Shown here: in pieces, positions 5,839 through 10,454 of the stretch
Layout of the letters: each line of letters begins with the position of its first letter
How positions within the stretch are numbered: the stretch's first letter is position 1
Assembly: GCA_934776915.1 (NCBI GenBank)
Contig: CAKVNA010000019.1
Location: 1-10,454, forward strand
DNA length: 10,454 nucleotides
DNA from: an uncultured Clostridia bacterium
GTDB taxonomy: Bacteria > Bacillota > Clostridia > Christensenellales > UBA1242
Reading direction: 5' to 3'
Translations under genes and position numbers: made by a program
Notes under the pieces: model-generated
Databases searched by the model: none
The model's input: only the letters and a program-made list of their open reading frames with translations
Told to the model about the DNA's origin: nothing

Positions 5839-6894
5839 TTATTCTTCTTCAATTTCAATTTCGTCATCATCTTCTTTCACATTTGCTGGAACATTGTGAG
5901 ATAAGACATAATGTCTTTGTTTTGCCATAACACTCCAAAGTGCTGGGATAACGAACAAGTGAGTGGCATACACAACAACAATTCCCGCAATGCAGGCAAG
6001 AGCCACATGAAGAATATTTTGAACAGTTAGAACACCAACAGCAATGCTTGCGATAAGCGCAATTATATAAACAATTTGATTTTTCTTCCAAAGGCTGTCA
6101 ACTGCAACACTTGCAAGTTCTGTATTAGACTTAATTTTCAAAGTTGGGTCATTGCCCTTTTCCTTAATTGTAAACAACAAATCTGCCGTTGCATAGACGC
6201 TTAGGCAAAGGACCAAAGCGGTCACTGCAAAGATGTATGAGTTAATTTCAATTCTTGCAAGACCAACAAAGCAAAGTGTCAAAAGAACATCAACAATGCC
6301 CGAAATTGCCATAACAAGAGCGCCCAAAGTCTTAAATCTTATGCAAGCATATATAATGGCAAGCACAAGTGCAAACAGCATACAAGCCCCAACAATGAAC
6401 CATGTTCGTGAACTTTGAGTTGCGTTGATTTCTGTTGTTTGTCTTGTCATATCAAAGCCGTCACCCAAAAATTCAATGCATTGTTCCGGGCTGTCTTTCA
6501 CTGCAAAAAATGCTTCGGAATCGTTGAATTGTTTGTTAATTGCAACACGGATGTCTTGCAAAGTTTTGCTGTCTGTCTTTTTGAAAGTCACAACAAAAGT
6601 TTTTGTGCCATAGTCACCTTGAGTTTGGAAAGATTCAATTTTTACACCTTTCCCTGTCAAAATCTTTCTTACACCATTTGAAGCAATTTCGTAGTCAGTT
6701 GGGCTTTCAATGTCAATGTTGCTGTTTTCAAATTGAACAACAAGTTGTGTCCCGCCCGAGAAGTCAATGCCCTTATTAAAACCAAATACACCAACAATTA
6801 CGCCCGCCACAACAATAAGCGCAAGCATAACAATAAGTGCTGGCTTAAAAAATTTCATAATGTCAAAAGAAGTGTTTTGTTTATTAGATTTCAT
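5839..6894 (-). CDS. secF: Protein translocase subunit SecF (divergent)
   Basis: An inner-membrane partner of SecD that helps pull proteins through SecYEG, normally using the proton gradient. The 351 residues show a first membrane segment at about 18-38, the SecF signature GIDFSGGT at 42-49, an extracytoplasmic P4-like domain to about 160, and a cluster of hydrophobic segments from 165 to 325. The usual motif near the fourth helix, of the form YSxNDTxxxFDRIRE, reads LSVYATADLLFTIKE at 231-245. By hand alignment, Ala235 replaces the essential Asp, and Lys271 sits where the essential Arg is expected. The C-terminus ends in a strongly acidic tail (EDDDEIEIEEE). The ATG overlaps the end of secD by 11 bases and follows AGGGAGG by nine bases, suggesting coupled translation. 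Assignment rests on the GIDFSGGT motif and pairing with SecD; proton coupling is doubtful. Confidence 0.9.
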   Translation of the reverse strand: MKSNKQNTSFDIMKFFKPALIVMLALIVVAGVIVGVFGFNKGIDFSGGTQLVVQFENSNIDIESPTDYEIASNGVRKILTGKGVKIESFQTQGDYGTKTFVVTFKKTDSKTLQDIRVAINKQFNDSEAFFAVKDSPEQCIEFLGDGFDMTRQTTEINATQSSRTWFIVGACMLFALVLAIIYACIRFKTLGALVMAISGIVDVLLTLCFVGLARIEINSYIFAVTALVLCLSVYATADLLFTIKEKGNDPTLKIKSNTELASVAVDSLWKKNQIVYIIALIASIAVGVLTVQNILHVALACIAGIVVVYATHLFVIPALWSVMAKQRHYVLSHNVPANVKEDDDEIEIEEE

Positions 6895-8269
6895 TTCTCA
6901 CAGCCTCCCTTTTAAGATTGTAAAGACCTTTCTTGGTGCTGTTCAAAACCATGTAGCAAGCGCAAACGCCACGCAACATAACAAACAGTGTAAAGTAATT
7001 TACAAAAAGTCCAACAAATAGCACACAAGCCATGTGTTTTATGCCTTGTGTTCCCACAATATAAAACACTGCAAGAAGGATAAGCAAGAAAGAATATTTT
7101 TCAAGAGTTGGAAGGACATTTTTCTTGAACCCTGCTCTAATTGCATTTGGAATTTTCTTGCCCGAAGCATATTCTTTGCGTATTCTTTCAAAAATTTGAA
7201 CCATGGAAGAAACGAGAATTAGGAATGTTGCAACAACTCCCAAAACTCCATTTATATCCATAACAACAAGTGGAATTGATTGAAGAAGGAATGCAAAGAT
7301 TGCCACAAAAACAAGCATACTCCAGCTGGCAAGTGCGCCAAACATTCTGTATCTTGTGGATAGGAACAACATAACGCCAACAACCATTGCCACAAGTCCC
7401 ACAATAAGCATTGTTTTTACATTTCCAAAAATTCCAACAACGGAAGTTGAAAGTCCGCTTGTGATGTTGTTATCTACAACTTTTTTAAGAATAACTGGTT
7501 TTGAAAGACTGTTGATTTGAAGTGCCAATGTGTTTGCAAATTCTTCATTTCCATATGCCAAAGTAAGACTTGAGATTGTGCCAGTTTCACTGATTGACCT
7601 GCCTTGTTTCCCTTCATTGTCATACAAAATATTTTGCCCATTTACATGCAAATAGAGTTTGTCAGTGCTACTTGCTCCAGTGGTCATGTTCCTTAACATT
7701 TCTTGCCCTTCGTCATTAAATTCAATAACGACCGACCACAAGTCAGTTGAGCCATAACTTGCCGCTTGCACATAACATTTTTTGAAATATTTGCCAGTTA
7801 TGCTGCCCTCGGCGTCACTTGATGTGCTTTTGTTAAGACTTATTCCGCTTTCAGACGCAATGGACGAAAAAAGGTCTGTCCCAAGCCCACTTTTTGAGAA
7901 CATATTTGTAAGTTTTTCATCATCATAGTTTGAAACAACAATCCTAATTGTCCTTTTTGTTTCCTCGCCAGAGTTGTCCACATGTCCCGACACTTCAAGC
8001 CCATAGCTTGCAAAAACACTTTTATATTTGTCCACAGTTGAGTTTACAGCAATTTCAAATTCACTGTCACTCATGCCTTCTCCTCGCTGTGCCTCAAAGA
8101 CAGACAATCTGCCCCCTGCGATATCATATCCATAATTTATTGCGCCAGCAAATCCACGAAATGTTGTGTTTGTGGTTGGAATAACAAAACTGACAAAAGT
8201 GAGCAACATTCCGATGACTGTCAAAATTGCCACAAGCACAAGTTTAATTCTAGAACTAGTTTTGGTCAT
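6884..8269 (-). CDS. secD: Protein translocase subunit SecD (divergent)
   Basis: A membrane partner of SecF in the Sec translocon accessory complex. From the chosen start it is 461 residues, a normal length for separate Clostridia-type SecD. Visible are an N-terminal membrane segment (about 9-31), a large extracytoplasmic domain to about 280 in which the LGLDLRGG motif is worn down to YGYDIAGG (46-53), and five hydrophobic segments at about 286-435. The family hallmark IFERIRKE is intact at 359-366, but the preceding GMAVDANVL reads FLILVSSMVQ, placing Ser354 at the normally essential proton-relay Asp. The frame is open upstream to 8380, but the ATG at 8267-8269 has AAAGGAG ten bases before it and a near-perfect promoter just upstream that lies inside the longer frame, so the longer form is unlikely. 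It is co-transcribed and overlapping with secF. Confidence 0.9.
   Translation of the reverse strand: MTKTSSRIKLVLVAILTVIGMLLTFVSFVIPTTNTTFRGFAGAINYGYDIAGGRLSVFEAQRGEGMSDSEFEIAVNSTVDKYKSVFASYGLEVSGHVDNSGEETKRTIRIVVSNYDDEKLTNMFSKSGLGTDLFSSIASESGISLNKSTSSDAEGSITGKYFKKCYVQAASYGSTDLWSVVIEFNDEGQEMLRNMTTGASSTDKLYLHVNGQNILYDNEGKQGRSISETGTISSLTLAYGNEEFANTLALQINSLSKPVILKKVVDNNITSGLSTSVVGIFGNVKTMLIVGLVAMVVGVMLFLSTRYRMFGALASWSMLVFVAIFAFLLQSIPLVVMDINGVLGVVATFLILVSSMVQIFERIRKEYASGKKIPNAIRAGFKKNVLPTLEKYSFLLILLAVFYIVGTQGIKHMACVLFVGLFVNYFTLFVMLRGVCACYMVLNSTKKGLYNLKREAVRNEI
6904..6910 (-). promoter_or_regulatory. Ribosome binding site of secF
   Basis: AGGGAGG on the minus strand, nine bases before the secF ATG and lying inside the 3' end of secD. 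It fixes the secF start and fits translational coupling. Confidence 0.75.
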
Positions 8270-8279
8270 TAAAGCCCGT

Positions 8280-8286
8280 CTCCTTT
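8280..8286 (-). promoter_or_regulatory. Ribosome binding site of secD
   Basis: AAAGGAG on the minus strand, ten bases before the ATG at 8269. It decides the start against upstream in-frame codons. Confidence 0.7.
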
Positions 8287-8299
8287 CAATATGCAATCT

Positions 8300-8328
8300 A
8301 TTATATAAAATAAAAATAGTTAAGTCAA
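8300..8328 (-). promoter_or_regulatory. Promoter of secD-secF
   Basis: TTGACT (-35, 8323-8328 on the minus strand), a 17-base spacer and a perfect TATAAT (-10, 8300-8305). Predicted start is near 8293, a leader of about 25 bases. The DNA immediately upstream (8330-8375) is A/T-tract rich and could act as an UP element. This is the strongest sigma-A-type promoter in the window. Confidence 0.85.
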
Positions 8329-8431
8329 TCACAATTTCAATTTCGTTGAAAATTTTTCGTGAAATTTTTAAAACATACAAAAAAAATGACTTAAATCACC
8401 CCAATTTTTGCCCAAAACTCACAATTCAAAC

Positions 8432-8483: not shown

Positions 8484-8870
8484 TTATTTCTTCAAATTCA
8501 CAAGGAATATGCCTGCAATAAGTCCCACAAGCCCTGCAAAAAGCACATCAAAAAGAATGCTTAGGCTAAAAGTAAAAGTTGCTGACAAAAGTCCAAACAC
8601 AGCATACGCCACAACACTGTAAATTGCCCCAACAAGAAGTCCTTTTATCGCCCCTTTGCTTCTGTCGGGCTTCAATGCAACATTCACCCCAAGAACCACA
8701 CTCACAACCTTTATAATCTGATTTACAATCTTAATTGTTGTGTCACCCATTTGCACAAATTTATACACAAGCGCAAATGCCAGCACCCCCACAATCGACA
8801 CACACACCGCAACAAGAACTCCCTTCAAAACGCCAAGAATACTTGCCTTTTTATCCAAAACACCTTCCAT
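8484..8870 (-). CDS. TIGR04086/DUF3792-type four-helix membrane protein
   Basis: A small integral membrane protein of 128 residues with four hydrophobic segments (about 12-37, 49-64, 77-95 and 98-125), a basic N-terminus (DKK) and a short C-terminal LKK. Length, topology, glycine-rich helices and position just upstream of secD fit the TIGR04086/DUF3792 family, which I recall as frequent near secD and yajC in Clostridia. Its biochemical role is unknown; a link to the Sec machinery is only suggested by location. Start choice: the ATG at 8868-8870 follows the purine run GGGGGAAGA directly, whereas an in-frame ATG at 8888, adding MFLGED, has no ribosome binding site. The gene is followed by its own terminator. 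No terminator is visible between it and the upstream surface-protein gene, so the two may share a transcript. Confidence 0.75.
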   Translation of the reverse strand: MEGVLDKKASILGVLKGVLVAVCVSIVGVLAFALVYKFVQMGDTTIKIVNQIIKVVSVVLGVNVALKPDRSKGAIKGLLVGAIYSVVAYAVFGLLSATFTFSLSILFDVLFAGLVGLIAGIFLVNLKK

Positions 8871-8952
8871 ATCTTCCCCCAAAAACATAAATTTAACAAC
8901 TGCTTGTCACTATTTAATGTTTATGGGCAAAAGGTCACAAATATTCATAAAA

Positions 8953-10454
8953 TCACTTCCAAATAGCAAGCAAAGTTTGGTCGCCAACTGTTGTATATTG
9001 AGTTGAGGAAGTGACAATATCCGCCCCGTAACTTCTGAAATCGGTTGCCAAACTGTTTTCCTTTAGGCGGAAGTCTTTTATGGTTAAATAACACTCACTA
9101 GCTGAATTTACAAGAGCTGGAAATCGTATGGTCAAGTAATTTCCGTCAACCAAGTCTTCCTCACGGGGACAAAATGTAATATAAAACATAAGATCATCAT
9201 CAATATAATCTGACTCACTTTTTAGAATAGCAGCAAATGTATCATTTGCAAGTCTGTTTGTGTAAACACCTTGCTTACCTGCTCCAACTGAAATAAACAT
9301 ATAATTTAAACTTGCTGAACAATTAAGTTCTTGTCTGATAAAAGATAATGTATAACTCTTGCCCGCTTGCACTTGAACATTAGTTGAAATTTCATTGTAT
9401 AAATTGCCGCTTTGAATTGAGTATTTGCCGTCTGCAAGTTGCAACATATTTTCATTCGTTGAATTTTGATTTGCAACTTCTTTATCTAAGGCATATTCCA
9501 GTTGTACATTGGAAATTGAAACATTTGCAGAGTAAGGATTTATAAACCTAACTGGTCTGAACGCAAAATATCTTGTTGGGGAGTCCCAATTATTAGTTGT
9601 AGCATAGCCTTCGTGATAATAAAAAGTAATAACACACTTTCCCTTTATCCAAGGGAAATGCTGATAATAAATATCTCGGTTATAATTACCTTCAACCCCA
9701 CAACCCACAGAACACATCATTTCTCCTAGATAAGTTGAGCCGTCATTGGTTGAGGAGTTAACAACATAATCAAAACTAAATGTGTAAGTCAGTCCTTTGA
9801 TAAGATAAATATCAGTTGTATATTGAATATAATATTTATTATCTACCGTCACCGTTCTGTCGGCAAAGTCTAACAAATTCTTAGAATAAGGTTCATATTC
9901 CGTTGCAGTGTCGCCATATTCCAGTTGAATTTTGTAAACATCTGCGTTAATGCTTTTCTCCGCCGTGTATGAGCGTAGCAAACGCAAATAAAGATAAGGT
10001 CTAGAAGACAACTGCTCTGAGGTTGGAGTAAATGCACAAGCAAGCCTATATTCTCCCCCATCGGTATAAATCATTCCACCAGAAACAATATCTTTCGTAA
10101 AACTCCCATTGACCGAAGTTTCGCCACAACCAATACTCGTATCAAAGTCGGCACCGTCCGAAATTGAATTTACTCTATAGTAAAAACTAAGGGTATATGT
10201 TACCCCCGCTTCCAATACAAAATCACAACCAACATTGTTGTTTTGTCCCTCATAATAACTTGTAACAGTCACATTTCTATCTGCAACATTTATTAAATTC
10301 TTTCCCCTATGCCAGCCAACAAAGGTTTTGCCGCTTCTGGTTGGGGTTGGAAGCGTGCCATAAGTGTTACCAAGCGTTACAGGCTTAGAGGATACCCCCC
10401 CCCCCCCGTTGTGGATAACTCGCCGCCGTTGGCGTTGAATGTAACGGTGTAGGT
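8953..10454 (-). CDS. Partial surface protein with split InlB B-repeat and three beta modules, frameshifted at a poly-G tract
   Basis: The 5' end lies beyond the right edge. From the edge to 10408 one frame encodes TYTVTFNANGG and following residues, the first strand of an InlB B-repeat (Flg_new/Listeria-Bacteroides repeat). After 13 G the repeat continues as VSSKPVTLGNTYGTLPTPTR and GKTFVGW, but in a different frame. As written, the upstream frame stops at TAA 10377-10379, so the product is truncated; 11 or 14 G would join the halves. The downstream frame is open for more than 480 codons to TGA at 8953. After the Trp come three tandem beta-rich modules (10302-9028), then TSSTQYTTVGDQTLLAIWK, which resembles the second half of the same B-repeat. 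There is no LPXTG or C-terminal membrane anchor. The likely role is a secreted or surface adhesin or glycan-binding protein (inferred). A GTG at 10272 is not a credible start. Confidence 0.75.
   Translation of the reverse strand, partial: LHRYIQRQRRRVIHNGGGGVSSKPVTLGNTYGTLPTPTRSGKTFVGWHRGKNLINVADRNVTVTSYYEGQNNNVGCDFVLEAGVTYTLSFYYRVNSISDGADFDTSIGCGETSVNGSFTKDIVSGGMIYTDGGEYRLACAFTPTSEQLSSRPYLYLRLLRSYTAEKSINADVYKIQLEYGDTATEYEPYSKNLLDFADRTVTVDNKYYIQYTTDIYLIKGLTYTFSFDYVVNSSTNDGSTYLGEMMCSVGCGVEGNYNRDIYYQHFPWIKGKCVITFYYHEGYATTNNWDSPTRYFAFRPVRFINPYSANVSISNVQLEYALDKEVANQNSTNENMLQLADGKYSIQSGNLYNEISTNVQVQAGKSYTLSFIRQELNCSASLNYMFISVGAGKQGVYTNRLANDTFAAILKSESDYIDDDLMFYITFCPREEDLVDGNYLTIRFPALVNSASECYLTIKDFRLKENSLATDFRSYGADIVTSSTQYTTVGDQTLLAIWK
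9028..10302 (-). repeat. Three tandem jelly-roll-like protein modules
   Basis: Module 1 spans about 10302-9886, module 2 about 9882-9463 and module 3 about 9453-9028, each roughly 140 residues. Shared landmarks are the opening KNLINVADRNVTV / KNLLDFADRTVTV / ENMLQLADGKYSI; then GVTYTLSFYY / GLTYTFSFDY / GKSYTLSFIR; then SIGCGETSVNG / SVGCGVEGNYN / SVGAGKQGVYT; and the closing IQLEYGDTATEYEPY / VQLEYALDKEV / FRLKENSLATDFRSY. The closing LE-G-xATEYEPY type motif is common in carbohydrate-binding-like beta-sandwich domains of surface and phage tail proteins. The copies are diverged at DNA level, so this is an old duplication. Confidence 0.75.
10395..10407 (-). repeat. Poly-G tract (13 G on coding strand), candidate phase-variation switch
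   Basis: Thirteen uninterrupted C on the plus strand, i.e. 13 G in the coding direction, sit inside the B-repeat of the surface-protein gene. They lie between codons for ELSTT and VSSKP. A tract of 3k+2 G (11, 14) keeps the frame and encodes a Gly run. Thirteen puts it out of frame, with a stop six codons after the tract. Tracts of this length are prone to slipped-strand length change. Confidence 0.85.

Follow-up and report, generated by a model that had tools for sequence, protein, structure and literature searches.

The switching of genes by poly-G tracts is a classical, already known mechanism. In Neisseria, a homopolymer between the -35 and -10 elements of porA, opc and fetA alters promoter strength, and amongst the phase-variable loci of Campylobacter jejuni surface glycan genes are prominent; these two genera, as well as Gardnerella and Bifidobacterium, each belong to another phylum than the organism considered here. 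The family of this organism has a promoter layout like the Neisseria promoter-spacer runs, mostly ahead of what look to be lipoprotein and membrane-anchored genes. One C. jejuni genome has 29 polyG/C loci of at least seven bases, which switch reversibly between ON and OFF by frame (PMC4965091). The genomes of Gardnerella have a median of 20 G/C runs of at least eight bases, many of them associated with surface proteins, InlB B-repeat regions are named amongst the motifs of the tract genes, and length variation was shown for one gene (PMC11287997). The sortase-pilus genes of the gut commensal Bifidobacterium breve include an intragenic G10-G11 tract that splits a surface gene into two frames, with a measured mixture of tract lengths (PMC9187656), while for Ca. 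Mycoplasma girerdii metagenomic repeat tracts were linked to surface proteins and length variants were recovered from the population (PMC5476646). A 2025 review counts among the major open questions why genomes with many phase-variable loci appear to be restricted to pathogens, which may be a matter of database bias (PMC11868660).

The locus described here lies in a 10,454-nucleotide stretch of DNA from an uncultured Clostridia bacterium (the whole stretch is hereafter the window). Like Gardnerella, the lineage of the window has many G/C runs tied to likely surface proteins, InlB B-repeats included, whereas about 70% of the Gardnerella tracts lie upstream of the gene and the passages of that study considered here place no run inside a B-repeat (PMC11287997). 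An intragenic G run dividing a surface gene over two frames is shared with B. breve, which has one or two such clusters per genome as opposed to the many runs in the window family (PMC9187656), and apparent frame-based switching at many polyG/C loci per genome is shared with C. jejuni (PMC4965091). Ca. M. girerdii is likewise an uncultured organism with tracts in surface proteins, although its repeats are described as mainly dinucleotide, with two length-variable homopolymers (PMC5476646). The open-licence literature, under the terms searched, yielded no account of phase variation by poly-G tracts in the lineage of the window, and the large repertoire of the lineage, also not found described, is a stronger and more interesting result than the single locus. 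The family offers a direct test of the pathogen-restriction question in uncultured, small-genome Clostridia, for which metagenome reads allow culture-free tract-length counts, with dozens of likely surface genes to score in each genome. Switching by G runs might also account for surface genes that appear broken, and for a share of the contig ends, in such assemblies.

A 13-G tract within a B-repeat

The coding (-) strand of the window carries 13 consecutive G at 10395-10407 (13 C on the + strand), only 47 bases from the contig end. The homopolymer exceeds the length predicted by the composition of the window, which has a GC content of 37% and in which the next longest homopolymer listed is a run of nine A; the six overlapping 8-G matches all fall within 10395-10407, while shuffled sequences had a mean of 0.06 and none of 200 reached six. 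On the coding strand TYTVTFNANGGELSTT precedes the run and VSSKPVTLGNTYGTLPTPTR comes after it, in another frame. The upstream frame is open to the contig end and ends at TAA 10377-10379, and the downstream frame is open to 8953 (about 480 codons), such that the gene is out of frame as assembled and the tract is placed where changes in length shift the reading frame. The start of the gene is missing, as the - strand gene in the last 1.5 kb runs off the contig. The tract and the stop codon named in the original prediction are thus present, and its frame arithmetic, by which 11 or 14 G would restore continuity and 13 G is the OFF state, is correct. The features are as follows.

8484..8888, - strand: neighbouring gene, DUF3792 membrane protein (Pfam)
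8953..10394, - strand: downstream open frame of about 480 codons plus stop, rest of the likely surface protein (frames, Pfam, homologues)
8956..9024, - strand: apparent C-terminal strand of the B-repeat (..TVGDQTLLAIWK; by eye)
9025..10266, - strand: apparent insert, lying after the GW motif and ahead of the last B-repeat strand (weak Pfam matches; units by eye)
10267..10401, - strand: downstream half of the B-repeat, PF09479 (Flg_new; E 7.1e-6, 26.5 bits vs cut-off 27)
10377..10379, - strand: TAA closing the upstream frame as assembled (frame reading)
10395..10407, - strand: 13-G homopolymer, 13 C on the + strand (sequence, shuffles, frames)
10408..10454, - strand: 5' part of the B-repeat in the TYTVTFNANGGELSTT frame, truncated where the contig ends (frames, Pfam match)

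The InlB-type B-repeat / Flg_new profile (PF09479) is matched across the two sides of the run, with the upstream 22-residue piece matching positions 1-15 (E 0.0024, 18.4 bits) and the downstream piece matching positions 9-53 (E 7.1e-6, 26.5 bits). As these matches follow one another along the profile, the G run divides a single B-repeat, which agrees with the prediction of a single repeat lying in two frames. Each piece alone scores below the PF09479 cut-off of 27 bits because the repeat is split and carries what appears to be an insert. Past the GW motif there are about 410 residues, in three tandem units (counted by eye), with weak matches of carbohydrate-binding type to CBM_4_9 and DUF642, both under cut-off. 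Because this stretch ends in an apparent last B-repeat strand, a large insert seems to sit inside the repeat; by eye, the protein end TTVGDQTLLAIWK resembles such a strand and is comparable to the end TTIGDHTLTASW (..TIGDHTLTASW) of L004, a relative described below. The tract may sit at a loop that tolerates a Gly linker of varying length, as originally proposed; an AlphaFold model of the downstream piece, with three sequences in the alignment, had a pLDDT of 47. The B-repeat and the weak carbohydrate-binding-type matches suggest that the product, whose N-terminus is beyond the contig end, is a likely B-repeat surface protein that may be displayed at the cell surface.

Taken with the phase suggested for a separate record and the family runs at switch positions (see below), this anatomy supports the original prediction, and the tract is most likely a slipped-strand poly-G contingency locus, an on/off switch. 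During replication, slippage would cause the run to gain or lose G, and the tract length in each cell would then decide whether ribosomes that start upstream go on to translate the remainder of the B-repeat surface protein. Expression of the full protein at this locus would thereby be expected to switch reversibly.

Homologues and neighbourhood of the window gene

A search of public proteins returned two close homologues of the downstream piece. P0002 is 79-80% identical over 87% of the piece and begins after the tract region, so it is mute on the tract. P0001, which is 95-96% identical over the whole length, begins M-ADNSLARGGGVSSK, just ahead of its own Gly run. When P0001 is back-translated one base before the start codon, the only reading is [DHNY]-G-[GR/stop]-[Q/stop]-[LF..], which is NGGQL-like compared to the NGGEL of the window. 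Judging from these protein letters, the B-repeat frame of P0001 would disagree with its downstream frame and do so in another phase than the window, so that the two judgeable records would each be out of phase, in different ways, with the downstream protein conserved between them. This suggests that the window tract varies in length. Homopolymers are error-prone in sequencing and assembly, only 47 bases separate the tract from the contig end and, for some Bifidobacterium G tracts, Illumina reads are reported to stop inside the tract (PMC9187656), all of which would fit a miscounted homopolymer in a gene with one fixed frame and no switch. Such a miscount is unlikely, given that a separate record also appears to be out of frame in the other phase and that the family has runs of 9-17 G at consistent switch positions, where in-frame and out-of-frame states are both found.

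An in-frame form of the window gene was not seen, and none of the 31 homologues has at least four consecutive Gly. A close copy was not found in the 309 family genomes at 1e-12, a weak negative as at most five candidates were scored in the genomes listed and the search missed L002, a 38% relative that was found with P0001 in G001. The gene was also not found in viral contigs. The closest contig to the window is L001 (CAMENR010000004.1), which belongs to genome G001 of the closest genus (12 genomes) in this family of 309; the SecD it encodes is 83% identical to that of the window, and a RecJ at 89% identity to that of the window (P0034) was taken as of the G001 lineage. L001 has the gene row yajC-like, DUF3792-like, secD, secF, recJ and pnp (named by eye), and the surface gene is absent beside the DUF3792-like gene next to secD. 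The absences from the family genomes (a weak negative) and from the equivalent place in L001, together with the lack of an in-frame homologue and two judgeable records that are both out of frame (P0001 by its protein letters), are what a decaying pseudogene with a permanent frame break would leave. This reading is quite improbable, since about 480 downstream codons are without a stop and conserved at 95-96% and 79-80%, and the sole visible break is at the homopolymer. In the same neighbourhood, the window encodes separate, overlapping SecD- and SecF-like genes at 5839-8380, of which the SecD-like gene is under the Pfam SecD_SecF_C cut-off (16.7 vs 20.5) and the SecF-like gene is over it. A promoter scan of the window was uninformative (10 found vs 7.0 expected).

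Five places in G001 match P0001 (L002-L006), and L002, the best match (38% over residues 9-183), was read on the coding strand along with L004 and L006. In all three, a membrane segment at the N-terminus stands shortly ahead of a B-repeat (SYTV[TS]FDPxGG..SSK.VKLGDNYG), and the Gly codons at the position of the tract are G-rich, with short or interrupted runs (6 G in L002). These G-rich but short stretches in the relatives suggest that the Gly-Gly codons of the repeat could have been the origin from which the window run expanded. A non-repetitive site in sister genomes had originally been put forward as evidence against a contingency locus; that is the type of site seen in L002, L004 and L006, but these relatives are distant.

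G runs across the family and phylum

Each run of at least nine G was counted once in a sample of 147 family genomes, and such runs were present in 109 of them (791 in all over 153.6 Mb, or 5.1 per Mb, with a median of 2 per genome). The richest was G081 with 46 runs in about 1.2 Mb, then G057 (37), G053 (33), and G014, G039, G068 and G150 (30 each). In a sample from the phylum, 301 of 398 genomes had a run of at least nine G. At a threshold of at least 10 runs per Mb there were 20 of the 147 family genomes compared to five of the 398 phylum genomes (the latter by eye; G366, with 74 runs, amongst them), and run richness is therefore concentrated in the family, though it also occurs outside of it. 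In the phylum sample, G366, G161, G270, G500 and G170 had 23-74 G runs and are possibly further large phasomes. Within the closest genus, seven of the 12 genomes had any run (maximum, 5) and G001 had none; in G009, L007 has 12 G in the apparent signal peptide of another secreted protein, out of frame.

The expectation that G runs would recur at the same B-repeat position in other genes found no support amongst the tracts compared. None of 146 other distinct tracts had a B-repeat on both sides, leaving the run in the window alone amongst the 147 tracts, and the three G001 relatives are without a long run; L043 has a loose B-repeat motif on one side only, which was read as a chance match. The placement of the window tract is thus unusual amongst those seen. 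The accompanying remark that far fewer examples were known from commensal Bacillota understates the case for this lineage, given the many family G runs at switch positions.

Loss of mismatch repair was considered as a cause of run richness and found no support as far as MutL is concerned: its loss is not the general reason, as MutL was present in 138 of the 147 family genomes (137 over cut-off), including all seven with at least 30 runs. Amongst the nine family genomes without a MutL match, one (G100) has 21 runs.

Several runs were of other types. In G024, G131, G082, G061 and G119, runs of mostly nine G after C have similar non-coding surroundings and look like a dispersed repeat. Nine G occur inside a gene resembling a C5 cytosine DNA methyltransferase (by eye; L065, G004:C194) and inside a gene with an SGGKDS motif (L059, G004:C105), while a glycosyltransferase-like protein and two acyltransferase-type membrane proteins (by eye; L025, L064 and L069) have a frame change or stop at 9-10 G. 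L060 (G005:C16, about 13754-13886) has three G runs (18, 10 and 15) in about 130 bases, with no clear frame.

Two probable switch layouts and length differences among copies

The G runs of the family occur in two layouts, after the start codon, where changes in length would act on translation, and between the -35 and -10 elements, where they would act on promoter spacing. For the first layout, 60 runs were fetched from four genomes picked partly for having many runs, such that the proportions are not family averages (G076, 20 of 20; G053, 17 of 33; G095, 3 of 8; G014, 20 of 30; most runs near contig starts were omitted). A ribosome-binding-type site and an ATG were found within 60 bases before the run at 46 of the 60 loci, with runs 9-17 long and mostly 12-14, and similar leaders recur before many different genes in G076, G053 and G014. 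A downstream frame of at least 200 aa was available for 22 of the 46 leader loci (the other 24 had no such frame in the fetched DNA and were left unscored), and the ATG was in that frame in eight of the 22, near the one third expected of freely drifting runs. All 25 of the downstream frames of at least 200 aa amongst the 60 loci had a strongly hydrophobic segment in the first 350 residues scanned. Of ten downstream proteins compared to Pfam, two matched PF09479 over cut-off and five matched GLUG (three over, two under), with one having both; three had no match and one had only a weak DUF3671 match under cut-off.

The second layout was searched for with the pattern TTGAC-gap-G9-gap-TATAAT, allowing a spacer of about 9-34, and had 50 matches in 23 of the 147 genomes, compared to none for the reversed pattern. 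The spacer was 16-20 in 37 of the 50 matches, most often 18-19, and 21-31 in the rest. A gene was close downstream at 27 of 30 promoter loci examined, with 11 encoding a lipobox, nine another N-terminal signal or membrane segment, and seven neither, one of the last being an ABC-type ATP-binding protein (by eye). Across both layouts, the genes at these G runs look to be mostly membrane-anchored or lipoprotein.

Copies of these loci within the same genome were compared for tract length, with flank identity defined for promoter sets over the stretch between the hexamers and for leader sets over the 14 bases before and six after the run. The number of G differed beside identical near flanks in nine of 11 sets (promoter, 6 of 7; leader, 3 of 4). 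These copies are mostly separate loci, and the comparison therefore indicates a tract length that changes more quickly than the flanking sequence, as opposed to one locus varying. Long G runs are able to slip at the RNA level, so RNA polymerase or ribosome slippage at the run could yield some full protein at any DNA length; this is highly improbable as the explanation, as it leaves unexplained both the differing DNA lengths beside identical flanks and the promoter-spacer runs. Replication slippage is the simplest common cause for the changes in frame and in promoter spacing. In three run-rich genomes, 25 of the 74 runs listed (of 83) had a contig end no more than 150 bases away; where the length of the contig was known, this held for 14 of 61 runs compared to 1.4 expected. 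Mixtures of tract length could break assemblies in this manner, and so could leaders common to paralogs.

On balance, though with moderate confidence, the evidence favors a family of uncultured Clostridia with genomes of ~1 Mb, some members of which have large poly-G phasomes (reaching 46 runs in a genome); in these, many membrane-anchored proteins would have received copies of a start-codon leader, and lipoproteins would have the promoter-spacer layout. Some members of this small-genome lineage would switch many likely surface proteins by runs of ~9-17 G, which would extend many-locus phase variation beyond the known pathogens, and the B-repeat gene of the window would be a member of such a phasome, with a tract that arose by expansion of the repeat's own Gly-Gly codons. 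At four of the leader loci (L125, L129 and L137 in G053 and L113 in G076), a short inverted repeat, TAGATAG..CTATCTA, directly follows the G run and is kept across paralogs; the RNA might fold into a hairpin there, at the very beginning of the gene.
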